Below, one piece after another: positions 5,350-23,497 of a stretch of 24,614 nt of DNA. Position 1 is the first letter of the stretch; every line of letters starts with the position of its first letter. The notes under the pieces are model-generated. The model made no database searches. It was not told where the DNA came from and saw only the letters and a list, made by a program, of their open reading frames with translations. This DNA is from a virus, in the IMG/VR virus record IMGVR_UViG_3300030389_001403, positions 1-24,614 of that record, one strand, 5' to 3'. The position numbers were made by a program, and so were the translations under genes.

Positions 5350-5804
5350 ACCTGTGGAACGCCTGTTGAAATAGTCAGACTAATATCTCCCTTTGCTTCT
5401 ACTCCTACCCTTTCTCCATACTTTTTAGGATTCCATTTAGCTAACAACTTAAGTCTTGCTTCTACTCTGTTCTTTTGCATTTGAACTGCTGCTGGATCTA
5501 GCCTTGTATTGCCCTCAGAACCGCACAAAGGAGGAGGTGAATCTATTATCTCCAAACATTCTTCTGCAATAGCATCAGCACCCATGTCTCGTGCGTGTGC
5601 GAAGCGTGCGATAAAGTCTCCATCATCTTTCTCCAACCAATTATAAATAGTTCTCCAATTAGGTTTATTTTTCTGACGGCAGTAAGACCTCAAAGTATTA
5701 CCATGAGCAATCCATTCAATTATTTCATCAACAATTTTAGGATCAGGTTTAGTAGAAGGTCTACCTAACTTGGATTGTTTTGTAGCGAGTTGCATAGGAA
5801 ACAC
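5346..5804 (-). CDS. terS: Terminase small subunit (Sf6-type)
   Basis: A protein of 152 residues from a GTG at 5804, or 149 from an ATG at 5795. It carries the typical Sf6-like small-terminase pattern: a basic N-terminus, TLRSYCRQKNKPNWRTIYNWL (DNA-binding helix-turn-helix, about 37-57), FIARFAHARDMGADAIAEE, then DPAAVQMQKNRVEARLKLLA and KWNPKKYGERVGVEAKGD. The protein forms a ring that recognises viral DNA and loads TerL. The GTG start has a weak GAG-type ribosome site, while the ATG has none visible, so the exact start is uncertain. The gene overlaps the end of the upstream HTH gene by 44 bases and is followed directly by terL. Confidence 0.92.
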   Translation of the reverse strand: MFPMQLATKQSKLGRPSTKPDPKIVDEIIEWIAHGNTLRSYCRQKNKPNWRTIYNWLEKDDGDFIARFAHARDMGADAIAEECLEIIDSPPPLCGSEGNTRLDPAAVQMQKNRVEARLKLLAKWNPKKYGERVGVEAKGDISLTISTGVPQV

Positions 5805-6027
5805 GTTTCTCGTAACGACAGATCTGGGCTATATAACCACGAGAGATACCGAACATTATGGAAAGACAGCCATAACCAATACCATAATCTTCGTGCAATT
5901 CTCGCAATGCATCAACAATCACCTGAGTTATTTGAGGATTATGGTTTGGATGATCCTCTGCGACTCGATGACCAGTATCAGAAACACCAACAACTTTAGT
6001 CTTGGTTCTAAATGCTGTTAGTGTCAT
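5761..6027 (-). CDS. Small helix-turn-helix DNA-binding protein (88 aa)
   Basis: From the ATG at 6027 this encodes 88 residues. A stretch of the type GHRVAEDHPNHNPQITQ (19-35) is followed by VDALRELHEDYGIGYGCLSIMFGISRGYIAQICRYEKR-type sequence (38-74). It includes a helix-turn-helix at about 52-70 where an aromatic-rich helix, a short turn and an SRGYIAQI recognition helix line up. Proteins with a '(G)xxxGEDHPN..LT..EV...RELHE' core then an HTH are familiar from phages as small DNA-binding proteins. I reject an in-frame upstream TTG at 6081 because it would only add a hydrophobic tract read from AT-rich spacer. It is the first leftward gene, so it may regulate or take part in packaging; there is no direct evidence for either. 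Confidence 0.75.
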   Translation of the reverse strand: MTLTAFRTKTKVVGVSDTGHRVAEDHPNHNPQITQVIVDALRELHEDYGIGYGCLSIMFGISRGYIAQICRYEKRVSYATRYKTIQVR

Positions 6028-6157
6028 CAAAAAAATAAATAAAATTAAACATAATATAGAGAAATGTAGAGTAAATCGCAATATCTAAAATTAATTTGTT
6101 GACATCTGTTGGATTATATGCAACACTATAAAAGTACATTACTATTTTCTAATAACA
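6028..6157. promoter_or_regulatory. Divergent control region between leftward late genes and rightward early genes
   Basis: These 130 bases separate the leftward HTH/terminase block from the first rightward operon. They hold a rightward promoter with a palindromic operator (annotated separately) and a long AT-rich part (6028-6095). On the minus strand a perfect TATAAT falls inside the operator (complement of 6113-6118), but I see no matching -35 for it at usual spacing. A leftward promoter here is therefore only a possibility, perhaps needing an activator. If real, repressor binding at one site could control both directions. Confidence 0.6.
6099..6127 (+). promoter_or_regulatory. Rightward promoter 1 with embedded 19-bp palindromic operator
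   Basis: A consensus -35 TTGACA at 6099-6104 is followed by a 17-bp spacer and a weaker -10 AACACT at 6122-6127. The spacer and -10 contain the palindrome TGTTGGATTATATGCAACA at 6107-6125, in which seven of nine base pairs match across the centre. The predicted transcript start is near 6134, giving a leader of about 24 bases before the ATG at 6158. Sister copies lie at 8136 and 8555 in the same arrangement. A bound repressor would block RNA polymerase directly. Confidence 0.75.
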
Positions 6158-7156
6158 ATGACACACTTCACATTCCCAACCAACCTTGCAGATCACCTAG
6201 AGCAAGAGATCTACAACAAACTAGTTGCTTCAGTACAACAAGACGTAGATTGCTGTAACAAGTTTTGGGCAAAACGTGAGCAAGAGGGCAGAACTTACGA
6301 CATGGCAAAAGTCTACAAGTCAAGATCTGGCAAAGTGGTAGAAGAAAAAGTTTATTACTACCAAGACAGCAAAGGTTTAAAAGACATTACTTTCCATCAG
6401 GAAGAAACTTCTTACTTTGACCCAAGCGTGACAATGCGTAATGACTATCACAGACCATTAAGTTGCAAAGTTCATTACAAGCGTTGTGCAGAAAATGCAA
6501 AGGCACAAAGAGATCATGCAGTTGCTTTATGTACAGAAAGAGTTAACAGCCATCTAACAGTTTCTGACAATGTCTATGACATCAACTTAGATCTAGGCAA
6601 AGGTAATCTTATTGAAGGTAACGTAACTGGTCACACAGTTAACAACCAAGATTTCCAGATACACCTTCAGATGATGTGGAACTACCGCTACGGTGAGAAC
6701 TCAGCTAATGGCTACCTTACACAGTATGTCCAGTACAGAAGTGACAGGCGTGGTGCTAGGCAAGAGGGCAAGTCAGTACAGCAAGCTATTACAGATGCTG
6801 AGAGACAGGCCAAGCGTGATGCCAAGCAAGCAATTGTTGACCAGAAAAATTTAGCCAAGTGGGAGAAATTTCAGAAGCTACCAGTTGTAATGGAGAAATG
6901 GGTAGACAAAGAAATTAAAACACTAGCTGCCGTGATCAGCGATGAAGGTTTAGCCAAGAGTCAATCAGATGCTGACAGAATGGGTTGGACATTTGACAAA
7001 GATTGGCAGATTAAATGCATTACAGGTGACATTGACAAACACAATACTTTGAGAAATGACCTCAGACATTGGCAAAATGACGAGACAGGACTTAAGGCAT
7101 TGTTTGACAAAGGTGTAGACACACGCAACAAACTTAAGGAGATGTACGGAGTTTAA
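6158..7156 (+). CDS. First early gene, 332 aa protein of unknown function
   Basis: This is the largest gene of the first rightward operon, directly behind promoter 1. The soluble 332-residue product has a charged, Gln- and Lys-rich N-terminus, two Cys in DVDCCNKFW, a YKxxxGKxVEEKVYYYQDSKG beta-like part, and a central aromatic segment (QMMWNYRYGENSANGYLTQY). An Arg/Ala/Lys helix at about 200-235 (SDRRGARQEGKSVQQAITDA onward) and a C-terminal alpha-helical part ending KLKEMYGV follow. I recognise no family. There is no Shine-Dalgarno sequence; the ATG follows an AT-rich leader shared in part with the 8633 gene. Its place as the first operator-controlled gene suggests an early, possibly host-directed role, but that is inference. 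Confidence 0.85.
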   Translation: MTHFTFPTNLADHLEQEIYNKLVASVQQDVDCCNKFWAKREQEGRTYDMAKVYKSRSGKVVEEKVYYYQDSKGLKDITFHQEETSYFDPSVTMRNDYHRPLSCKVHYKRCAENAKAQRDHAVALCTERVNSHLTVSDNVYDINLDLGKGNLIEGNVTGHTVNNQDFQIHLQMMWNYRYGENSANGYLTQYVQYRSDRRGARQEGKSVQQAITDAERQAKRDAKQAIVDQKNLAKWEKFQKLPVVMEKWVDKEIKTLAAVISDEGLAKSQSDADRMGWTFDKDWQIKCITGDIDKHNTLRNDLRHWQNDETGLKALFDKGVDTRNKLKEMYGV

Positions 7157-7196
7157 TTACTCCTACATCTTTTTTTATTTACAGGAGATTTTAAAA

Positions 7197-7400
7197 ATGA
7201 ACACTATTAAAAAATTCACTTCAAAAGTTGACGGTTGCGAGTTCGATTATTTTATTGATCAAAGCACTAGCAGCAATCAAAAAATCCTTAGTTACAGAAT
7301 TGATGGAACTGATTGGCAAGACTTCATACCAAATGACAAGAGAGCCTACAGCCCCGAACAATACCAAGAGATGATAAATCTACTGGAGAGCAATTCATGA
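7197..7400 (+). CDS. Small early protein (67 aa), unknown
   Basis: A 67-residue protein starting MNTIKKFTSKVDGCEFDYFI, preceded by a good AGGAG ribosome site (7183-7187). It reads as a small alpha/beta domain: a beta-hairpin with FDYFID and SYRIDGTDWQDFIPNDK, then a helix SPEQYQEMINLLESNS. I recognise no family. It lies 40 bases after the 332-residue gene. The intergenic stretch holds a weak 5-bp GGAGT/ACTCC stem at the upstream stop and a T-run a few bases later, possibly a partial attenuator. Its stop overlaps the start of the 16-codon frame that follows. Confidence 0.75.
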   Translation: MNTIKKFTSKVDGCEFDYFIDQSTSSNQKILSYRIDGTDWQDFIPNDKRAYSPEQYQEMINLLESNS

Positions 7401-7447
7401 CCTTTGTACTATTTCCTTATTTACTTTTATTCCTAATCCTTATTTGA
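7397..7447 (+). CDS. 16-residue hydrophobic leader-type peptide
   Basis: An ATG at 7397 overlaps the preceding stop (ATGA) and opens a 16-codon frame, MTFVLFPYLLLFLILI, ending in TGA at 7445-7447. A GGAG sequence at 7384-7387 lies at suitable distance. The next gene starts at 7449, one base after this stop, and has no ribosome site of its own. The frame exactly bridges what would otherwise be an unexplained 48-base gap. The peptide is wholly hydrophobic and could be a mini membrane peptide, or its translation may matter only to deliver ribosomes to the next start. It is very short, so certainty is limited. Confidence 0.45.
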   Translation: MTFVLFPYLLLFLILI

Positions 7448-7448
7448 C

Positions 7449-7934
7449 ATGGACAAACATCAAATCAACTTACCAGAATCAGAATTTAAAATGCTAATCA
7501 AAGCATACGAAGACAGATTATGGAAACACATAAAACCAATACAAAGGTTTGAAACTGGCGTTGAGATACAACGTTATCGCACCAGTAACGCATTATTGGA
7601 ATGTGAACAAATGAATTTTAAAGTTATGATGGGTGACCACAACTACAGAGTTAGTCTTGGCACACCTGATTGTTTAACTAACATTTCTTACACCAGAAAA
7701 TTTAAAAATCCTACTGTGTATCGTGAATGGTATCTAACAGAGATCAGACACAGCTACAACGAAATCTATGCAAGGATTACGCAATTAGCACAAACCATTG
7801 GATATGATTACAGCCATCTAGTTGGGCAGCTTAACTTTACAGAGTTAGAGCAAGCCAGTATTGATTATTGGTTAGAAAAAAATGCCAGACCACCAGTTAG
7901 CAAAATGTTTTTACCAACTCATCAGGAGGTGTAA
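7449..7934 (+). CDS. Early protein of unknown function (161 aa)
   Basis: A 161-residue soluble protein starting MDKHQINLPESEFKMLIKAY. It is mostly helical with many Tyr, Arg and Glu residues. The centre (RTSNALLECEQMNFKVMMGD to RVSLGTPDCLTN) looks beta-rich, and a helical segment follows (WYLTEIRHSYNEIYARITQL). I recognise no family. The start is chosen because it lies one base after the stop of the 16-codon frame; no Shine-Dalgarno sequence precedes it, so translation probably depends on coupling. The next gene follows three bases after its stop with an AGGAGGT site inside this gene's last codons. Confidence 0.8.
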   Translation: MDKHQINLPESEFKMLIKAYEDRLWKHIKPIQRFETGVEIQRYRTSNALLECEQMNFKVMMGDHNYRVSLGTPDCLTNISYTRKFKNPTVYREWYLTEIRHSYNEIYARITQLAQTIGYDYSHLVGQLNFTELEQASIDYWLEKNARPPVSKMFLPTHQEV

Positions 7935-7937
7935 ACA

Positions 7938-8090
7938 ATGGACAATCCAAAACTAAACGATGAGCAAATTGAAAATTTAACTTATTCTCTTTACTCAAAT
8001 TTAATGGACTTCAAACAACTTAATACAGGTTTTATGCCAAACAGAGAGGACATTATTAAATGTCTTGACAACGCATTACAAAATTTATAG
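7938..8090 (+). CDS. Small early protein (50 aa), unknown
   Basis: A 50-residue acidic protein, MDNPKLNDEQIENLTYSLYS at the start and DIIKCLDNALQNL at the end, probably two helices. An excellent AGGAGGT at 7924-7930 precedes the ATG at 7938. It is the last gene of the first rightward operon: its TAG stop (8088-8090) is already part of the 5' arm of the intrinsic terminator. No family recognised. The ribosome site and position make a real gene likely. Confidence 0.75.
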   Translation: MDNPKLNDEQIENLTYSLYSNLMDFKQLNTGFMPNREDIIKCLDNALQNL

Positions 8091-8116
8091 AGGGTGTAAC
8101 AACCCTCTTTTTTTTT
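8089..8116 (+). terminator. Intrinsic terminator of the first early operon
   Basis: AGAGGGT (8089-8095) pairs perfectly with ACCCTCT (8102-8108) across a six-base loop, giving a 7-bp GC-rich stem. A run of nine T (8108-8116) follows. This is a standard rho-independent terminator that isolates the first early operon from the repressor promoter immediately downstream. The 5' arm overlaps the stop codon of the 50-residue gene. Confidence 0.88.
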
Positions 8117-8126
8117 GCCTAATTAC

Positions 8127-8156
8127 TTGTATTAATGTTGCATTTATGGCAATATA
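8127..8156 (+). promoter_or_regulatory. Repressor promoter with second operator copy
   Basis: The second copy of the palindrome, TGTTGCATTTATGGCAATA, lies at 8136-8154 (six of nine pairs match across the centre). A TTGTAT at 8127-8132 and CAATAT/AATATA at 8150-8156 are plausible -35 and -10 elements at about 17-18 bp spacing. Both are poorer matches than in the other two units. The predicted transcript start falls near the ATG at 8162, so the repressor mRNA may be almost leaderless. Binding of the gene's own product here would give negative autoregulation. Confidence 0.6.
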
Positions 8157-8161
8157 GAGGT

Positions 8162-8380
8162 ATGGAATCAACTATTAAAACACCAGTACAATTAGCCATT
8201 GCTTCCTTCGGTGGTGTGCGTGCGTTGGCACGAGCTATCCACAGAGATCCAGCATCAGTATCTAAATGGCAAAAGGGAGATGGCACTATACCAACATCTA
8301 TTCAACGCAAGCTGCTTGAGACAGCATGGGATAGAGGTATAGATCTATCAGCCCATGAACTAATTTTTGGTAGAGAATGA
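8162..8380 (+). CDS. Cro/YdaS-like helix-turn-helix repressor
   Basis: From the ATG at 8162 this encodes 72 residues, consisting of a single DNA-binding domain. The pattern FGGVRALARAIHRDPASVSKWQ (about 16-37) is a typical Cro/YdaS-like helix-turn-helix, followed by GTIPTSIQRKLLETAWDRGI. There is no C-terminal cleavage or dimerisation domain of the LexA/CI kind, so it is more Cro-like than CI-like. I prefer 8162 over an in-frame ATG at 8135 because the earlier one lies inside the operator and would add only a short odd extension. It sits between the three operator-bearing promoters and is the obvious candidate to bind them. Related small proteins also act as antitoxins, but no toxin partner is seen. 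Confidence 0.85.
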   Translation: MESTIKTPVQLAIASFGGVRALARAIHRDPASVSKWQKGDGTIPTSIQRKLLETAWDRGIDLSAHELIFGRE

Positions 8381-8538
8381 AGTGCTGGTGGTGTGACAGC
8401 GATCTTATCTGGGGATCAGATGTAGATATAGAAGAGGGCATGGGAGGTTATCCTGAGTTTTCGGTAATGACTAATTTATCTTGCCCCAGATGTGAATCTC
8501 AGGTGGAAGTACTAAAGAAAAGCGATGCCTTCGATTAA
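8377..8538 (+). CDS. Small CxxC/CxxC zinc-ribbon-like phage protein (53 aa)
   Basis: The ATG at 8377 overlaps the repressor stop (ATGA), and the frame runs to TAA at 8536-8538, giving 53 residues. Two cysteine pairs, Cys3/Cys6 (MKCWWC) and Cys36/Cys39 (SCPRC), frame an acidic middle (DVDIEEGMGGYPEF) and should bind one zinc ion. Small phage proteins with 'MKCWxC...DLIWGxD.DIEE...MVTNLSCPxC' are common, with unknown function. It is probably co-transcribed with the repressor and ends just before the third promoter. Confidence 0.8.
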   Translation: MKCWWCDSDLIWGSDVDIEEGMGGYPEFSVMTNLSCPRCESQVEVLKKSDAFD

Positions 8539-8546
8539 TTAATTAT

Positions 8547-8575
8547 TTGACAGGTGTTGCAGTATGTGCTACACT
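8547..8575 (+). promoter_or_regulatory. Promoter of the recombination/replication operon with third operator copy
   Basis: TTGACA at 8547-8552, a 17-bp spacer and TACACT at 8570-8575 form the best sigma-70-type promoter of the window. The palindrome TGTTGCAGTATGTGCTACA at 8555-8573 lies in exactly the same register to the -35 and -10 as the copy at 6107 (two bases after the -35). Six of nine pairs match across the centre. It should drive the operon from 8633 to 14083, with a start near 8582. Confidence 0.8.
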
Positions 8576-8581
8576 AGTTTA

Positions 8582-8632
8582 CGAAGGTGTTATACCTTCA
8601 ATTGTTGTTTACTAATTTCTATTAACAAACAC
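8582..8632 (+). promoter_or_regulatory. 5' leader with end hairpin and shared AT-rich motif
   Basis: The predicted leader begins with a hairpin, GAAGGT (8583-8588) with ACCTTC (8594-8599) around a five-base loop, placed nearly at the 5' end of the transcript. Near the ATG is ACTAATTTCTATTAACA (8611-8627), identical at 15 of 17 positions to 6141-6157 in front of the first early gene. There is no Shine-Dalgarno sequence. The hairpin may protect the mRNA and the motif may help ribosome binding; both are inference. Confidence 0.45.
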
Positions 8633-9151
8633 ATGGCAATTCAATTACCAAAAAGTTCACATCCAACGGGATTACACTTTTTTAAACGCAACCCACATCC
8701 TAAAAAGGAAGACCATGGTGATTGCGGAGTTAGAGCTATTACTTTAGCTACTGGCACTGATTACTCACGAGTAAAATTTTATGCCGACAGATGGATTCAA
8801 GAGAATGATTATGAATACTCTGAACCATGCTGGGGCTACAGAACCAGATACAAAACTTCCTACGGTGGTATGACCGCAGGGGATATGACTTCTATCCTTC
8901 ATGACATAGGAAGAAGTTATAACACAGACCTAAGACGTTGGAGTCGACATGGTCTTACTACTAAATTTCATGTCGATCAATTACCAACTGTTTGCATTGT
9001 TGAGCAATGTCAACATTTTGTAGCTGTGAAAGATGGTGCTATCTATGACAGTTGGGATAGCAGAGGTAAGACTAAAAAATTAAAAGAAGTGCATGGCATA
9101 TGGTGTCATGACGATGTCTGGGATAACTTTGTTAGCAAGAGGTACAGATGA
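8633..9151 (+). CDS. Papain-like-fold cysteine peptidase-like phage protein
   Basis: Starting at the ATG at 8633 it encodes 172 residues. HGDCGVRAITLATGTDYSRV (28-47) carries Cys31 in the position of a catalytic Cys at the start of a helix, QHFVAVKDG (127-135) carries His128, and YDSWDSRGK (138-146) carries Asp139 or Asp142. The 'DCxxRAxxxATG ... (S/G)DMxxxL ... LP... HFVAVKDGxIYDSWDSRG' layout is a recurrent phage family, usually left as hypothetical, with C39/papain-like spacing of the Cys-His-Asp triad. Its substrate is unknown. An in-frame ATG at 8564 is rejected because it lies inside the promoter. It is the first gene of the recombination operon and so is expressed early. Confidence 0.8.
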   Translation: MAIQLPKSSHPTGLHFFKRNPHPKKEDHGDCGVRAITLATGTDYSRVKFYADRWIQENDYEYSEPCWGYRTRYKTSYGGMTAGDMTSILHDIGRSYNTDLRRWSRHGLTTKFHVDQLPTVCIVEQCQHFVAVKDGAIYDSWDSRGKTKKLKEVHGIWCHDDVWDNFVSKRYR

Positions 9152-9294
9152 CAGATACCCAGAAACTACAAAGGTTGGCCTACTTGGCCGACCTTCCTTA
9201 TTGCAAGCACACATCAGAGGATTGGGAAGAAGAACTCAGACTCGAATGTGAATTACAAGACCACCCTCAGTACAAATCTTTTTTAGACCAATGA
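9148..9294 (+). CDS. Small protein (48 aa), unknown
   Basis: The ATG at 9148 overlaps the upstream stop (ATGA) and the TGA at 9292-9294 overlaps the next start, so this 48-codon frame tiles perfectly between its neighbours. The product starts MTDTQKLQRLAYLADLPYCK, continues with a very acidic helix (SEDWEEELRLECELQDHPQY), and ends in a short tail. No family recognised. Tiling with four-base overlaps on both sides is the main evidence that it is translated. Confidence 0.65.
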   Translation: MTDTQKLQRLAYLADLPYCKHTSEDWEEELRLECELQDHPQYKSFLDQ

Positions 9295-9512
9295 TCCCAA
9301 AAACAATTCAAGACCATAACGGTAAAAACGCATGGCAATTTTCAGTTGACACTACCAGACAAGCATTTTGGAAGATGGTAGAGAAAGGCGAAGAAGCAGA
9401 CATTTTTGATCTTGTCTTTAGCGAGTTAACTATTGACCAATGTAAAAACATCAATAAATTAATTGATGCAGAAATTTGGAAAGAACTACATTTACAGGAG
9501 AAAAATCAATGA
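9291..9512 (+). CDS. Small protein (73 aa), unknown
   Basis: A 73-residue protein starting MIPKTIQDHNGKNAWQFSVD and ending with a helix (IDQCKNINKLIDAEIWKELH). It overlaps both neighbouring genes by four bases. Composition is acidic and helical; no family recognised. It lies between the peptidase-like gene and the recombination genes, in the part of the operon that probably collects small host-interaction or accessory genes. Confidence 0.7.
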   Translation: MIPKTIQDHNGKNAWQFSVDTTRQAFWKMVEKGEEADIFDLVFSELTIDQCKNINKLIDAEIWKELHLQEKNQ

Positions 9513-9814
9513 GAAAAATTACTATCGAACTATATGCCAACAGCGAGTACTCACTTGATGACAGGTTAAAAGAAATTAGATGGGCTATTACAAGAACTGT
9601 ATGGCCTTCATCTTGTTTTTCAGAAGGCAGCCGTAAACGTTTAGAATCTGGCTGCGTTGAAGAAGAAACAGAATACAAGCTAACTGATTATGAATACGAC
9701 AAAGAAAATCCCAATTGGGGATATGGTCGCAGACAAGATTGCGTTGGCAAATGGAAAATGCAAATTGTTCCAGACCAAGACTATGTAAACTTTCAAAAAT
9801 CAGAAGAGCTATGA
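9509..9814 (+). CDS. Small protein (101 aa), unknown
   Basis: The ATG at 9509 has an AGGAG at 9497-9501 and overlaps the upstream stop (ATGA); a longer in-frame start at 9476 is therefore rejected. The 101-residue product starts MRKITIELYANSEYSLDDRL and contains a Cys/Gly/Arg-rich middle (SSCFSEGSRKRLESGCVEEE). It closes with an aromatic part (NWGYGRRQDCVGKWKMQIVP) and QKSEEL. It looks like a small alpha/beta protein. No family recognised. The stop overlaps the exonuclease start by four bases, suggesting coupled expression with recombination functions. Confidence 0.75.
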   Translation: MRKITIELYANSEYSLDDRLKEIRWAITRTVWPSSCFSEGSRKRLESGCVEEETEYKLTDYEYDKENPNWGYGRRQDCVGKWKMQIVPDQDYVNFQKSEEL

Positions 9815-10758
9815 CTTTAAAAGAAATTCCAATAACCAACAAACAAGATTGGTTAGAAAACAGATTGCTTGATGTAACTTCTACAGAAGTATCAGCATTG
9901 TTTAACGTCAACCCATACCAATCAGAGTTTGAGTTGTACAACCAGAAAAAAGATAAGGTTGTTGTCAACTTGGAAGACTCAGAACGTATGGCATGGGGTC
10001 GCAGACTTGAGGATTCTATAGCTCAAGGTTGTGCGGAATCTCAGGGATGGCAAGTTCAACCATTTGATGTATACATGAGCGATACAGACACAAGAATGGG
10101 TAGCTCGTTTGACTACAAAATTACTAGCACTGACGAGCTAGGAATTATGGAAGTAAAAAATGTAGACGCAATGGTTTATCGCACGAAGTGGATTGACGAT
10201 GGCAATGGGCATATTGAAGCACCACCACATATTGAAATGCAATTGCAGCATCAACTTCATGTAGCCAACATTAGTTGGGGATGCATAGTTGCCTTGGTAG
10301 GTGGCAATACACAAAAGCTTATTGTCAGAGCAAGAAACAAGGAAGTTGGAGAAATGCTTGAAACAAAAGTAAAAGAATTTTGGGATAAGGTTAAAGCAGG
10401 TACACCACCTGACATTGATTATCTCAGAGATTCTAGTTACATCATTAAAAGTTTATGCAATCAGGCAGACGCAGGTGTAATCCTTGCAGCAGATGAAGAC
10501 ATGGACAAACTTGTTGATGATTACTACGCAATCAACAAAGAATACATTTCACTTGGCAAAACAAAAGATTCTATAAAAGCACAAATTTTAGAAAAAAGTC
10601 AGAATGCATCCAAGATTGTTTCCAAGTACGGCACAATCAATTGCGGAATGACAAAAGGTAGTCAAGGTAAATACATTACCCAAGACATGGTTGGCACATA
10701 CATCAACCCACGCAAAGGCTTTCGCCAATTTAAATTTAATCAACCAAAAGGAGTTTAA
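9811..10758 (+). CDS. YqaJ-type recombination exonuclease
   Basis: A 315-residue protein from the ATG at 9811, chosen over an in-frame 9715 start because of the ATGA overlap. It matches the YqaJ/lambda-exonuclease fold: TEVSALFNVNPYQSEFELY (25-43), an Arg/Glu helix MAWGRRLEDSIAQ with Glu67, catalytic Asp101 in SFDYK, the E-x-K pair Glu114/Lys116 in IMEVKN, and Gln144/Gln148 in EMQLQHQLHV. The C-terminal 100 residues include a charged helix and a basic tail. The enzyme resects a DNA strand 5' to 3', producing tails for the single-strand annealing protein encoded just downstream. Length and pairing with RecT fit a Red-like system. Confidence 0.9.
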   Translation: MTLKEIPITNKQDWLENRLLDVTSTEVSALFNVNPYQSEFELYNQKKDKVVVNLEDSERMAWGRRLEDSIAQGCAESQGWQVQPFDVYMSDTDTRMGSSFDYKITSTDELGIMEVKNVDAMVYRTKWIDDGNGHIEAPPHIEMQLQHQLHVANISWGCIVALVGGNTQKLIVRARNKEVGEMLETKVKEFWDKVKAGTPPDIDYLRDSSYIIKSLCNQADAGVILAADEDMDKLVDDYYAINKEYISLGKTKDSIKAQILEKSQNASKIVSKYGTINCGMTKGSQGKYITQDMVGTYINPRKGFRQFKFNQPKGV

Positions 10759-10760
10759 AA

Positions 10761-11561
10761 ATGACCTCATCAATCACACCACTTGTAGCCATGCAGGGAA
10801 CACTAGAAAAAATGGCAGACAAATTTACTGAAGCTTTGCCAAGGCAAATGGATGTAAACAAATTTATTAGTGTTGCTAAGTTAACGCTAAATAAAAATCC
10901 AAAGTTATTACAAGCAGACAAAACTAGTTTGATGCAGACTTTTATGAAGGCAGCACAAGATGGTTTGTATTTAGATGGCAGAGAAGCAGCAGCAGTTCAG
11001 TATGGCAATCAAGTTAATTATTTACCTATGGTCGAAGGTGTTATTAAGTTAATGCATAACAGCGGATTAATAAAAACAATTTCTGCTGAAGTTGTATATG
11101 AAAATGATTGTTTTGAATATGAGTTAGGAAGTAATCCTCATGTAAAGCATATTCCATTGTTAGTTGGTAACAGAGGTAATCGTATATGCGTTTACTGTTA
11201 TGTACAAACTGCAAATGATGGAGAGTACATTGAGATTATGAATATGGATGATTTAGATAAATGCAAACAACAAGCAAAAGGTGCATCATCACCACATTCA
11301 CCTTGGGTTAAATGGTTTGACCAGATGGCCAAGAAAACTGTTATCCATCGCATAGCAAAACGACTACCAAAAAACGATGCAATTAGTTCTGTTGTCAGAA
11401 TAGAAGAGGATACTGATTTTAAACAGCCAGTAAATGTAACTCCTACACCTGATAAACAAGACCAGCCATTGTCCAGACTCAAAGAAGCTATGGGCATGGA
11501 CGATGCAGGTGTCGAGCAAGCTAGGCAAGATGTATTAAAAAAATACAAAGGGGAGGAGTAA
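10761..11561 (+). CDS. recT: RecT-family single-strand DNA annealing protein
   Basis: A 266-residue protein with an AAAGGAG site upstream. The N-terminus (MTSSITPLVAMQGTLEKMAD...FISVAKLTLNKNPKLLQADK), the LMQTFMKAAQDGLYLDGREA segment and the YLPMVEGVIKLMHNSG strand-helix are typical of the RecT/Bet-like family. A C-terminal part has WVKWFDQMAKKTVIHRIAKR. It anneals complementary single strands in homologous recombination together with the preceding exonuclease. The end (about 225-266) is a charged linker and tail that could contact partners such as the SSB-like protein of the same operon. The stop TAA shares its last A with the next ATG. Confidence 0.92.
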   Translation: MTSSITPLVAMQGTLEKMADKFTEALPRQMDVNKFISVAKLTLNKNPKLLQADKTSLMQTFMKAAQDGLYLDGREAAAVQYGNQVNYLPMVEGVIKLMHNSGLIKTISAEVVYENDCFEYELGSNPHVKHIPLLVGNRGNRICVYCYVQTANDGEYIEIMNMDDLDKCKQQAKGASSPHSPWVKWFDQMAKKTVIHRIAKRLPKNDAISSVVRIEEDTDFKQPVNVTPTPDKQDQPLSRLKEAMGMDDAGVEQARQDVLKKYKGEE

Positions 11562-12205
11562 TGCATTTTTACTCCTTCAACATTGGCGATTACATAAGCC
11601 ATACTAAACACTTGTCAAACATGGAGGATCTAGCATACAGAAGATTGCTAGACCTCTACTACCTACATGAACGGACGTTGAACGAGGATGTGGCAACTGT
11701 TGCACGCAAAATCAACATGAGAGATAACGTGCCAGAAGTAGAAGTAGTTTTAAAAGAATTTTTTATTCTAGAAGTTGGCAAAGGATGGATTAATCCAAGG
11801 GCTGACGAAGAAATAGAAAAGTATCAAAGCAAGGTACAATCAGCAATTAGAGCAGGTAAAGCATCTGCTCTTGCTAGGTCTAACGCACGTTCAACAACGG
11901 TTCAACCAAACAAGAAACAAGAAACATTAAACAAGAAACAAGAAACAAATATAAAGCGACCACGCAATGTAAGTAAAAAAACATGGGATGATTTTTTAAC
12001 TCATAGAAAAAACAAGAAAGCACCATTAACAGAAACTGCTTTGATTGGTATAAAGAATGAAGTTAAGAAAACTACTATTAGTTTGGAGGATGCATTGGTT
12101 ATGTGCCAAGCAAGAGGATGGCAGAGTTTTAAATCCGATTGGATTAACAAAGAACAAAAGTCATTTGCTACTACTAACTACGGTGAGGGGGTACAAAAGA
12201 TATGA
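11561..12205 (+). CDS. DUF1376 protein, probable replication initiator
   Basis: A 214-residue protein whose first 95 residues match DUF1376 (MHFYSFNIGDYISHTKHLSN, then EDLAYRRLLDLYYLHE, INMRDNVPEVEVVLKEFF and GWINPRADEEIEKYQSK). This winged-helix-like domain is typical of phage replication proteins found directly before a DnaC-type loader. A Lys/Gln/Asn-rich linker (about 115-130) is encoded by the direct repeats at 11908-11947. A C-terminal part has KTWDDFLTHRKNKKAPLTET and SFKSDWIN. The presumed job is to bind the origin and recruit the loader; that is inferred from organisation. The start overlaps the recT stop by one base, with a GGGGAGGAG site. Confidence 0.85.
   Translation: MHFYSFNIGDYISHTKHLSNMEDLAYRRLLDLYYLHERTLNEDVATVARKINMRDNVPEVEVVLKEFFILEVGKGWINPRADEEIEKYQSKVQSAIRAGKASALARSNARSTTVQPNKKQETLNKKQETNIKRPRNVSKKTWDDFLTHRKNKKAPLTETALIGIKNEVKKTTISLEDALVMCQARGWQSFKSDWINKEQKSFATTNYGEGVQKI
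11889..11947 (+). repeat. Direct repeats inside the initiator gene; candidate replication origin
   Basis: A perfect 19-bp direct repeat, AAACAAGAAACAAGAAACA, occurs at 11908-11926 and 11929-11947, spaced 21 bp (about two helical turns). Each copy is itself built from tandem ACAAGAA units. Just upstream GTTCAAC is repeated at 11889-11895 and 11900-11906. AT-rich sequence follows. Lambda-type phages carry iterons in the middle of their initiator gene, so an origin here is plausible. The repeats also encode a simple KKQET-type linker, so they may be only low-complexity coding sequence. Confidence 0.45.
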
Positions 12206-12981
12206 GTTTAGAAAACCTTATCAACAAGGATAGGCCAACAGAAAAACGCACTTGTTCTATACACAATGTTGCCTATACTTCAACAAACTTTATTGGCGAG
12301 CATTGGACAGAGTGTCCAAAGTGTATGATGTTACGCAAAGAGAAGGAAGCTTTAGAGCAAATTAAAGCTGATAAGCAACGTGAACAGGAGCGTGAGCAGC
12401 GTAGATGGACAGCCAAGGTAGGAAGTGCAGCTATACCAGAACGATTTAAGGATCGGACATTGGATAGTTATGTAGCAAAGACAAGTGGTCAACAGAAGGC
12501 ATTAGCTTTTGCAAAAGAGTATGCAGAAAACTTTGACCAAGTAATAAAAACAGGACGTTCTGCAATCTTTGTTGGCAAACCGGGAACTGGCAAAACCCAT
12601 TTGGCAATAGGCATTGCGTTAAGCATTATGCAACAACAACGGTCACCAGTATTTGTCACCGTACAACGTCTAATTAGAAGAGTTAAGGATAGTTGGAGAA
12701 CAAAAGAAGAAACAGAGAGCGAAGTCATAGATGCATTTGCATCACCTGATCTGCTCATACTTGATGAAGTTGGTGTACAGTTTGGGTCAGAGTTTGAAAA
12801 ACAATTGTTGTTTGATGTACTCAATGAACGTTATGAAAAACTTAAGCCATCTATTTTATTATCAAATATTCCTAGCGAGCAATTGTCAGACTACCTTGGT
12901 GAACGTGTAACTGATAGGTTGCGTGAGAACGGAGGTGCATTAATTGGTTTTAACTGGGATTCTTACAGAAAAAATTTATGA
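12202..12981 (+). CDS. DnaC-like helicase loader (AAA+ ATPase)
   Basis: A 259-residue AAA+ protein. The N-terminus has a probable zinc site (Cys18, His21, Cys38, Cys41 in RTCSIHN and ECPKCMM) and a long charged helix (42-70). The ATPase part has Walker A GKPGTGKT at 125-132, Walker B LLILDEVG at 184-191, a sensor-1 SN at 221-222 and an arginine-finger region ERVTDRLRENGG at 234-245. DnaC-family loaders place the replicative helicase on origin DNA. There is no helicase gene in the window, so it probably recruits the host DnaB. It overlaps the DUF1376 gene by four bases. Confidence 0.93.
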   Translation: MSLENLINKDRPTEKRTCSIHNVAYTSTNFIGEHWTECPKCMMLRKEKEALEQIKADKQREQEREQRRWTAKVGSAAIPERFKDRTLDSYVAKTSGQQKALAFAKEYAENFDQVIKTGRSAIFVGKPGTGKTHLAIGIALSIMQQQRSPVFVTVQRLIRRVKDSWRTKEETESEVIDAFASPDLLILDEVGVQFGSEFEKQLLFDVLNERYEKLKPSILLSNIPSEQLSDYLGERVTDRLRENGGALIGFNWDSYRKNL

Positions 12982-13061
12982 CAACAGAACAAAAAGTTGC
13001 AGCAGCCAAGGCACGCATCAAAGAATTAGAATTATTAATTAAACTATGGAGCAAATCTTAA
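12978..13061 (+). CDS. 27-residue small phage protein
   Basis: The ATG at 12978 overlaps the loader stop (ATGA) and the TAA at 13059-13061 shares its last base with the next ATG. The 27-residue product starts MTTEQKVAAAKARIKELELL and ends IKLWSKS, a single amphipathic helix with heptad-like spacing of Ile/Leu. Peptides of the 'A.KRIKELE.LIKLW' type are familiar from phages. Overlaps at both ends support translation; function is unknown. Confidence 0.6.
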   Translation: MTTEQKVAAAKARIKELELLIKLWSKS

Positions 13062-13381
13062 TGACAAAAAACAAACTAAACACAGGTGACTTGTGGTTTA
13101 ATCCAAACGAACCAGAAAAATTAGCAGTATTTAAAAAAAATAAATGGGAAAAATTTATACCCGAATTGTCAGAAAAACAAAAAGACATTATGCAAATTGC
13201 AAATTACAGGCAGCAATTAGCAGAACTGGAAACACAGTTTTGGTTTAATGATTTAAAAGCACAGGATTATATGGTTAGATTTGATGCAATAAAAAAACGC
13301 ATACATGAATTAGAAAATAAACATAAAACTTTATGGGAAAAATTTATTTATTTTATAAAAAAATTATTTAAAAAAATATGA
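13061..13381 (+). CDS. Small coiled-coil protein (106 aa), unknown
   Basis: From the ATG at 13061 (TAATG overlap) it has 106 residues. It starts MTKNKLNTGDLWFNPNEPEK, a WxF/W-rich N-terminal motif with KLAVFKKNKWEKFIPE. A long helix follows with coiled-coil character (QIANYRQQLAELETQFWFND to RFDAIKKRIHELENK), and the C-terminus is very basic and hydrophobic (WEKFIYFIKKLFKKI), possibly an amphipathic membrane-surface or DNA-contact helix. A longer start at 13046 would overlap the previous gene more. No family recognised. The next gene (RusA) overlaps its stop by four bases. Confidence 0.75.
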   Translation: MTKNKLNTGDLWFNPNEPEKLAVFKKNKWEKFIPELSEKQKDIMQIANYRQQLAELETQFWFNDLKAQDYMVRFDAIKKRIHELENKHKTLWEKFIYFIKKLFKKI

Positions 13382-13800
13382 TTGAAATAGTATTAGGTTG
13401 GCCACCATCAGATCTATCTCCAAACAAAAGATTGCATTGGGCAAAACTGGCAGCAGCAAAAAAACAATACAGAAAAGATTGTTTTAGTGTATCTAAAGAA
13501 CAGTTAAAAAAATATCGAGGGGTATATGAAAACATACCAGAAAAATTAGTTTTAGAAATGACGTTTATACCGCCAGACAAACGAAGTTATGACCGTGATA
13601 ACTTAGTTGCTAGAATGAAGGCAGGTATTGACGGATTAGCTGACGCATTACGCATCAACGACAAACGTTTTAATACTGTCATATCAACCATGGACTCAGA
13701 CTATCTCGGTGGTTTTGTCCGCATACGCATACTACAGGAAATTCCTTATGGCACGAAAGATCAAGAACCTATCCGTCAAGACACGAGAGTACAAAGATAA
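13378..13800 (+). CDS. rusA: RusA-like Holliday junction resolvase
   Basis: A 140-residue protein with a RusA signature: N-terminal strand EIVLGWPPSDLSPNKRLHW, then strand VLEMTFIPPDKRSYDRDN and helix NLVARMKAGIDGLADALRIN. Asp72, Asp74 and Asp95, with Lys81, sit in the 'D-x-D-N ... K ... DGL ... D' arrangement of the metal-dependent active site. RusA cuts four-way DNA junctions made by recombination, consistent with the exonuclease/RecT pair upstream. Length is near the family norm. The start overlaps the previous stop (ATGA) and the last 53 bases overlap the SSB-like gene in another frame. Confidence 0.9.
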   Translation: MIEIVLGWPPSDLSPNKRLHWAKLAAAKKQYRKDCFSVSKEQLKKYRGVYENIPEKLVLEMTFIPPDKRSYDRDNLVARMKAGIDGLADALRINDKRFNTVISTMDSDYLGGFVRIRILQEIPYGTKDQEPIRQDTRVQR

Positions 13801-14083
13801 AGACGGCAATTCTAAGGCCAACTGGGTCAACATTGGAGTCATCATGGAGAATGACCAAGGCAAACAATTTATGCTTATTGATAGATGGGTAAATTTAGCA
13901 GGGTTGCCTGACTTTAGTGACAAACCAAATCCATCAGCAGTAATGGTATCTATTTTTGATGCAGATAATAATTACCAACCCGGAAAACCTGCACCAAGTA
14001 CACCAACATATAAAGGCAATGATAATTCAGACAGTTGGAATAGCTCACCTAAAGTACCAGAAGTAGACGAGATTCCATTTTAA
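13748..14083 (+). CDS. SSB-like protein with acidic DEIPF tip
   Basis: From the ATG at 13748, with an AGGA at suitable distance, it has 111 residues. The N-terminal part (MARKIKNLSVKTREYKDKDG to WVNIGVIMENDQGKQFMLID) reads as a small beta domain, possibly an OB-like fold. A Pro/Ser/Asn-rich linker leads to a C-terminal tip ending PEVDEIPF. Bacterial SSB proteins end in acidic D-D-I-P-F, which binds many repair proteins, so this tip strongly suggests a single-strand-binding protein. The core fold is not clearly a standard SSB and should be checked. It is the last gene of the operon. Confidence 0.7.
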   Translation: MARKIKNLSVKTREYKDKDGNSKANWVNIGVIMENDQGKQFMLIDRWVNLAGLPDFSDKPNPSAVMVSIFDADNNYQPGKPAPSTPTYKGNDNSDSWNSSPKVPEVDEIPF

Positions 14084-21733: not shown

Positions 21734-23497
21734 TTATACAAAAGTAACAACAGAAGGACTATTAATAGTCAGTGTAGCATTGATTGTAAATGGTGTCGGA
21801 ACAACTGCATTATGATTTGTACTTATTGTGTAATCCTGATCCATAGTATTTTCCGATTCGTGAAAAATTTTCTCACCGTTACCACCAGCAGCACCGCCAC
21901 CAATAGTTCCCCATGCACCATTGTTATAACCTTCAAATTGATTTAGTTGACTATTATGACGTATCATCCCAACTACAGGACTACCATCTCTAGCTGCTGT
22001 ATTACCAGATGGTAATTTTGCAGAACCACTAGTACTTGTTCTTGGTACTTTTTCTGTATCTAATTCTTGTATTGCAGCTTGCACATTAGTTGCAGCTACA
22101 TCTCCTGTAGCAGCAGAAACTATATTTGCAGCATCACCGGGAACATATGCAGCAACCCAAGCAGAGCCTGTGTATACTTTCATAATGTTTGATGTTGTGT
22201 TGTAATACAAATCACCACCAGTTAATGGGTCACCGTCATTATCTACAGTAGGATCACTAGATTTTGGCCCAAGATAAGTATCATCAAAATTATCAAAAGC
22301 AGCTAATGCAGATGCAGCAGAAGACGCTGCGGATGTTGCACTAGAAGCAGCATTTGTTGCGCTTGTAGCAGCTTCACCTGCTTTTGTTGTTGCAGTAGTT
22401 GCACTACCAGCAGCACCTGTAGCAGAATTTGCAGCATTACTTGCTTGTGTTGATGCAGTAGATGCAGATCCTGATGCAGCCGTTGCTGAAGATGCAGCAG
22501 CCGTTGCACTATTGGCAGCATTAGTAGCAGATGTACTTGCACCACTAGCTTGAGTTGTTGCTGTTGTCGCAGAACTAGCAGCGTTAGTTGCACTTGACGC
22601 TGCTGCTGTTGCAGAATTACTTGCGTTTGTTGCACTAGTTGCTGCATTAGTTGCAGACGTTGCTGCTTGTGTCGCTTTAGTTGTAGCTGTAGTAGCTTGA
22701 GTTGTAGCAGTATTGGCTTGTGTGGTAGCTGTAGTAGCACTATTTGCTGCTGCTGTAGCTGATGCTGCTGCTGCGTTTGCTGATGTTGTAGCTGCTGCTG
22801 CGTCTACTATTAAATTCCAAGCAGCAGAATTTGTATTAGTTGTTAAAGGTTGTGATCCACTAGACGTATGCGCTGAGACACATATAAAAATATTATTTGT
22901 TGATGTATCTTTTACAAAATCTCTTACATTATATGAACGACCTGCTGCCCAATCACCTCTATATACACCTAATTCTTGTACAACGTTAAATTCACCACTA
23001 TCGTCAAAACCTAATACTTTATTTGCTCTGGCTGCTGCGTTTTCTGTAATTTCTAAACTACCAATAGTATTAGTTAATGAAAATCTTATACCTCTATCTA
23101 ATTCTGTTTGTTGTTGTTGATGTAAGATTATTGCTTTATCTAATGCATCATTAATAACTTCTGGAAAAAACCCACCTTGGTTTGTTAAATCTGTACCTTG
23201 TAATGGTTCTACAGCAGAAGTAATAACAATACTAAATCCACTAGCTAAATTTTGATTATTACCGCCTGATTTTAATGTTATGCTTCCACCGGGATTGCTG
23301 TTTTGGTCTGCATTTAAAGTAACTATATAATCGTTATTTAATCCTAAAGTTAATGTTGTCTCGTTACTTGTGCTAGCCTCTAATTTTTTTACAACAATAT
23401 CTGCGTCTGTAAAAACTTTAAAAGCAAAAGGAAAAGTATGTGCAGAACCGTTACCTACAAAAGGATTTGTCTTTCTTGTAGTCGAATTTATCGTCAT
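21734..23497 (-). CDS. T7-type tail fibre protein with Ala/Ser/Thr repeat shaft (587 aa)
   Basis: Residues 1-150 match the T7 tail fibre N-terminal domain that attaches the fibre to the tail (TRKTNPFVGNGSAHTFPFAF, FFPEVINDALDKAIILHQQQ, TELDRGIRFS). Residues 178-230 (YRGDWAAGRSYNVRDFVKDT then NNIFICVSAHTSS) look like a small CBM5/12-type module. Residues 232-400 are a long Ala/Ser/Thr heptad-like repeat, likely a trimeric shaft. Residues 405-450 (DTYLGPKSSDPTVDN then DPLTGGDLYYNTTSNIMKVY) are a recurring fibre domain, and the C-terminus is beta-rich. It is the main fibre, first of the downstream fibre series. A 62-base gap (23498-23559) without a clear promoter separates it from the internal virion protein. 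Confidence 0.9.
   Translation of the reverse strand: MTINSTTRKTNPFVGNGSAHTFPFAFKVFTDADIVVKKLEASTSNETTLTLGLNNDYIVTLNADQNSNPGGSITLKSGGNNQNLASGFSIVITSAVEPLQGTDLTNQGGFFPEVINDALDKAIILHQQQQTELDRGIRFSLTNTIGSLEITENAAARANKVLGFDDSGEFNVVQELGVYRGDWAAGRSYNVRDFVKDTSTNNIFICVSAHTSSGSQPLTTNTNSAAWNLIVDAAAATTSANAAAASATAAANSATTATTQANTATTQATTATTKATQAATSATNAATSATNASNSATAAASSATNAASSATTATTQASGASTSATNAANSATAAASSATAASGSASTASTQASNAANSATGAAGSATTATTKAGEAATSATNAASSATSAASSAASALAAFDNFDDTYLGPKSSDPTVDNDGDPLTGGDLYYNTTSNIMKVYTGSAWVAAYVPGDAANIVSAATGDVAATNVQAAIQELDTEKVPRTSTSGSAKLPSGNTAARDGSPVVGMIRHNSQLNQFEGYNNGAWGTIGGGAAGGNGEKIFHESENTMDQDYTISTNHNAVVPTPFTINATLTINSPSVVTFV
22298..22804 (-). repeat. Ala/Ser/Thr heptad repeat region of the main fibre
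   Basis: About 170 residues of the fibre gene are nearly all Ala, Ser, Thr, Asn and Gln, in units such as SATNAAS, TATTQAS and SATAAAS with roughly seven-residue period. The DNA is a degenerate array of GCA/GTT/ACT-rich units that produces long chance open frames in other frames. Such repeats form extended trimeric coiled shafts in fibres and can vary in copy number by recombination. Confidence 0.85.

Follow-up and report, generated by a model that had tools for sequence, protein, structure and literature searches.

The Cro proteins of phages P22 and N15 repress phage promoters through short palindromes that overlap the promoter. YdaS, the Cro equivalent of the Rac and CP-933P prophages (PMC9986795), acts in prophages that carry RacR/PaaR2 and YdaT partners, and PY54 Cro, the lytic repressor of a temperate phage with CI, acts on only one operator in its region (PMC4488713). 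Literature searches returned nothing on point for a Cro circuit without CI in lytic phages, and they found nothing on the carph-isopro family or on Cobetia phage Carin1. The locus described here resembles those of P22, N15, and prophage Xfaso 1 in its small five-helix HTH protein; however, the sequence of this protein scores below the Pfam cut-off for the P22_Cro family, no CI partner was found, and the operators stand singly at separate promoters over 2.5 kb rather than clustered like OR1-OR3. The likeness to YdaS consists of weak sequence similarity (Pfam YdaS_toxin, below cut-off) and a Cro role that is predicted here, and neither RacR/PaaR2 nor YdaT partners are seen. In contrast to PY54, there is one site at each of three promoters. 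The Manatee Spring podoviruses ctEw122 and ctQRb9 and Limnohabitans phage DC33 have a homologous HTH protein and the same type of site before its gene, but these sites share a single divergent intergenic region, with the HTH gene on one side and the recombination operon on the other, whereas the lineage studied here has them split over three co-directional promoters.

The Window and Its Relatives

The window is the whole stretch of DNA that was analyzed, 24,614 nucleotides without end repeats (IMG/VR record IMGVR_UViG_3300030389_001403, positions 1 to 24,614). It encodes podovirus hallmark proteins (PF12236 portal, Sf6-like TerS, and TerL) and proteins of recombination and replication (a RecE-like nuclease, RecT, and a DnaC-like loader). 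Given that no capsid gene was recognized within the 24,614-base window, it is probably a genome fragment, and several of the relatives considered below are likewise incomplete records. The TerL protein is 72% identical to those of ctEw122 and ctQRb9, and the product of the first early gene is 46% identical to that of a gene of cyanophage MED4-117. This gene, of the phrog_36669 type, is common to Prochlorococcus phages MED4-117 and MED4-184 and thereby bridges unrelated virion types.

Table 1. Coordinates of the early region and of the adjoining leftward operon in the window.
Feature	Positions	Strand	Remarks
HTH2, second small HTH-like protein	5764-6027	-	Heads the packaging operon
Divergent leftward promoter	6053-6081	-	TTGCGA-17-TATATT, without operator; kept in most relatives
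Promoter P1	6099-6127	+	TTGACA (6099-6104), 17-bp spacer, extended -10 TGC-AACACT (6119-6127)
Operator 1 (putative)	6107-6125	+	TGTTGGATTATATGCAACA
Leader element	6139-6158	+	TTACTATTTTCTAATAACAA; immediately 5' of the first start codon, without Shine-Dalgarno
Early operon 1	6158-8090	+	phrog_36669-type gene (6158-7156) and small genes annotated without function
Intrinsic terminator	8089-8116	+	AGAGGGTGTAACAACCCTCT and T run; closes operon 1 before the HTH promoter
Promoter P2	8127-8155	+	Weak -35 TTGTAT, 17-bp spacer, TGG-CAATAT
Operator 2 (putative)	8136-8154	+	TGTTGCATTTATGGCAATA; 26 bases 5' of the HTH start codon
Cro-like HTH repressor (predicted), 72 residues	8162-8380	+	NCBIfam carph-isopro NF046037
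Small CxxC-CxxC protein, zinc-ribbon-like (weak)	8377-8538	+	Directly after the HTH gene here and in relative L044
Promoter P3	8547-8575	+	TTGACA (8547-8552), 17-bp spacer, extended -10 TGC-TACACT (8567-8575)
Operator 3 (putative)	8555-8573	+	TGTTGCAGTATGTGCTACA
Operon 3 leader	8583-8628	+	Hairpin GAAGGTGTTATACCTTC (8583-8599), leader element TTACTAATTTCTATTAACAA (8609-8628)
Early operon 3	8633-14083	+	RecE-like nuclease, RecT, DnaC-like loader, and others; transcript extent inferred

Operator-Like Palindromes in the Early Promoters

Three imperfect 19-bp palindromes each lie within a sigma70-type promoter (3/3 sites; table 1). They are identical at 11 of 19 positions, and seven, six, and six of their nine pairs are symmetric in sites 1, 2, and 3, respectively. 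An earlier note on this DNA, made from the sequence, had described these three copies with 11 shared positions and six to seven symmetric pairs, the first and third copies starting exactly two bases after a TTGACA, and our recount agrees on each point. The same note had them cover the 17-bp spacer and the -10; the overlap is seen, and for operator 1 its extent is 15 bases of the spacer and four of the six bases of the -10. Site 2 is also inside a promoter (TTGTAT-17-CAATAT), the -35 of which is weaker than those of P1 and P3, and in all three sites the right arm forms the TGN of the extended -10 and most of the -10 hexamer.

The three sites are far from chance. The pattern TGTTGNNNTATNTGCNACA occurs in the window twice exactly and three times with at most one mismatch, and it occurs in none of 60 second-order Markov shuffles of the window. 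With three mismatches allowed, TGTTGCANTATNTGCAACA has nine matches in the window versus 0.22 expected. All six surplus matches are coding: the dnaC-like gene has one (12267-12285), and tail-fibre repeats have the other five (22334-22646). The dnaC match was rejected as a fourth operator, as its codons vary synonymously across 23 distinct relatives in ways that break the site, and the tail-fibre matches are repeats of a coding motif. The earlier note had found no fourth copy by eye, and in the window the coding matches of the looser motif are confined to this gene and these repeats.

The terminator that parts operon 1 from P2 is kept in most marine relatives. Given that the predicted start of P2 falls on or beside the ATG of the HTH gene, the repressor mRNA is probably leaderless. 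The element TTACTAATTTCTATTAACAA is found in the window only at 6139 (two mismatches) and 8609, where a Shine-Dalgarno sequence would be expected in the P1 and P3 transcripts, and it often stands behind a hairpin, also in relatives; unlike the first genes of operons 1 and 3, several internal genes carry AGGAG-like sequences. This shared leader element is a possible translation enhancer. The first gene of operon 3 (8633-9151) encodes a protein of 172 residues that has a cysteine-protease-like look (DCGVRA, HFVAV) and no match in Pfam or NCBIfam.

A Cro-Like Protein of 72 Residues

The HTH protein models as an all-alpha Cro-like protein. Its structure model (pLDDT 90.5) has five helices in an all-alpha Cro fold and best matches Xfaso 1 Cro (Z 8.7 over 60 residues, rmsd 1.8); N15 Cro (Z 6.9) and P22 Cro (Z 6.8) follow, and we regard only the Xfaso 1 match as strong given that a Z below 8 can reflect a common helix arrangement. 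Foldseek E-values are weak (best 0.014), as we consider usual for an HTH protein of 72 residues, and a phmmer search of the PDB found no credible relative except a weak XPH1. In sequence, the protein passes the curated cut-off of carph-isopro NF046037 (42.2 bits vs. 38) and falls below the gathering cut-offs of P22_Cro PF14549 (27.4 vs. 30.2) and YdaS_toxin PF15943 (22.5 vs. 30). The Cro/YdaS-like identity proposed earlier is supported by the all-alpha Cro model, with the Pfam and carph-isopro scores as a correction to it. The predicted recognition helix spans residues 30-36 (PASVSKW), with serine and lysine at residues 32 and 35. Position 8162 is likely the start codon, because relatives (the CGTTGC variants and the freshwater phages) lack the in-frame ATG at 8135. 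The protein had been called the only small HTH repressor on the plus strand, to which we add the second small HTH-like gene on the minus strand, HTH2. The product of HTH2 has no Pfam match above cut-off and is a candidate late regulator.

Conservation of the Sites in Related Viruses

A first scan for the HTH protein returned 53 viral loci. About 50 related marine virus contigs have a site at the upstream early operon, at -26 from the HTH start, and at the downstream early operon, and this three-place layout is found, wherever the locus is long enough, in nearly all loci with a 79-97% identical HTH protein as well as in the 68-69% group; three loci (L023, L031, and L042) have a fourth site. Across the marine relatives, the outer sites stand at -353 to -2332 and at +360 to +1158 from the HTH gene, and because these distances vary with gene cargo, it is the sites themselves that are being kept. 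The conserved unit consists of TTGACA or TTGCCA, two bases, the operator, and usually CT, with the right arm serving as extended -10, and its P1-type form was found in 26 distinct loci. The left arm, which lies in the spacer, is nearly invariant, with the caveat that class 1 and 3 sites were picked by similarity, which inflates column conservation.

The site before the HTH gene was examined in 128 distinct HTH promoters, including those of the freshwater Limnohabitans and Manatee Spring podoviruses, by taking the best site in the 90 bases upstream only. In 111 of the 128, the best TGTTG-N9-CAACA-like site falls at -25 to -29 from the start (0.1 in shuffles); most of the other 17 have a weaker copy at that place and a better copy farther upstream. 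The earlier placement of copy 2 in the repressor's own promoter is accordingly borne out, the -26 site being kept in nearly all 128 distinct homologues. Across seven long relatives, the early-region sites are mostly among the best genome-wide matches; in the divergent relatives G006, G009, and G010, some coding matches equal the early-region sites when scored with the window's matrix.

The surroundings of the sites differ among lineages. In the window's lineage, the HTH gene lies among co-directional early genes with one operator per promoter. In the freshwater phages, whose HTH protein is about 63% identical, one site precedes the HTH gene and another sits in the divergent region that faces the recombination operon, and in ctEw122 and DC33 the sites are back to back. 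In L044 and L149, the HTH gene stands opposite a divergent early operon (that of L044 includes the RecE-like nuclease) and points to HTH2, TerS, and TerL, and the sites of these loci are at -26 and -82/-88. DC33 (L057, PQ492659.1) is filed in its record under Inoviridae despite being a tailed phage with 39 kb of dsDNA.

Operator sequence and recognition helix differ together in one group of relatives. In the clade with an A32/R35 helix, 33 of 47 promoters have adenine at operator position 6, as against 0 of 37 others, and cytosine at this position is likewise common inside the clade. The co-variation of motif and HTH that the earlier note had proposed looking for is seen as a half-site change that accompanies A32/R35; however, this group forms a single clade on the tree and hence represents one event, and we rejected independent, repeated covariation.

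A Proposed Self-Limiting Shut-Off of Early Transcription

Based on the sites, their embedding in promoters, their conservation, and the Cro-like model, we infer that the palindromes are very probably operators of the 72-residue protein, which would bind them and repress both early operons and its own gene. The operator-like site inside its own promoter is part of what is expected of an autorepressor. Early in infection, host sigma70 RNA polymerase would start from P1, P2, and P3, and P2 would give rise to a leaderless mRNA for the repressor. Repressor dimers would accumulate and bind the operators over the spacer and extended -10 of each promoter, turning off both presumably early operons and, by negative feedback, the repressor gene itself. 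Occlusion of three host-type promoters by a Cro-like dimer is the simplest reading, and given that no CI partner was found, we posit an early shut-off that is one-way and self-limiting rather than a switch between lysis and lysogeny.

Binding of the sites by another regulator, either HTH2 or a host repressor, is very improbable. In its favor, marine and several freshwater relatives keep HTH2 next to TerS, and the HTH2 gene begins some 80 bp away from operator 1; however, in marine and freshwater phages alike the site that varies least is the one fixed at -26 from the start of the Cro-like gene, Cobetia phage Carin1 carries two such sites close to its Cro homologue and no detected HTH2, and the site stays alike across hosts as different as Limnohabitans, Cobetia, and those of the marine phages. 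We consider it most improbable of all that the sites are strong promoter sequences with an incidental dyad, kept for RNA polymerase. The right arm coincides with the extended -10 and the -35 stands at a fixed distance, as such promoters would have it, but sigma70 reads no bases in the spacer, and the left arm TGTTG is kept there; moreover, the motif is missing from this phage's own leftward promoter, and freshwater relatives keep the dyad with different -10 sequences.

A lysogeny switch, with a CI-like repressor encoded in the missing part of the genome or on another element of a temperate phage, is very improbable. Cro is normally paired with CI, and the 24.6-kb window is a fragment in which no capsid gene was recognized, yet models of integrase, resolvase, and S24 had no match in 16 relatives, and HTH_3 had a single below-cutoff match among them, in MED4-117, a distantly related siphovirus; none of the four was found in ten long marine relatives or in five podovirus genomes. 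The podovirus relatives of the window, itself incomplete, show no gene of the CI type (HTH_3 or S24), nor a CI competing for the same operators as in lambda, in keeping with the earlier note, which had not seen CI. Two scans of 84,980 species genomes found no homologue of the HTH protein, so no prophage home is seen. Neither integrase nor prophage state, the marks of a temperate phage that do not extend to plasmid-like lysogeny, was found. The plaques of the freshwater relative DC33 are clear (PMC12195039). A lytic life is likely, as judged from relatives that include fragments. The compact autoregulated switch on both early operons that had been proposed is retained insofar as sites 1 and 3 travel with their promoters and the -26 site is kept, but, with a single repressor present, it is not bistable in the way of lambda.

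The proposed shut-off may have a further consequence at the divergent leftward promoter, which is predicted to drive the HTH2-TerS-TerL operon and whose -35 lies 17 bp from that of P1. Clearing P1 of RNA polymerase could free the adjacent DNA and help this packaging promoter, so that the lone Cro would act as an early-to-late timer. We offer this reading, drawn from promoter geometry only, as doubtful; if it is true, a single repressor ends early transcription and also sets off late transcription.

Implications for Marine Podoviruses

For uncultured marine podoviruses of a widespread group, the locus provides a predicted transcription programme, and it would be an example from nature of Cro-type regulation that does without CI. 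The related architectures suggest that one operator/repressor pair is re-used while the surrounding genes move, and given that DC33 has a cultured host, the prediction is open to experiment.
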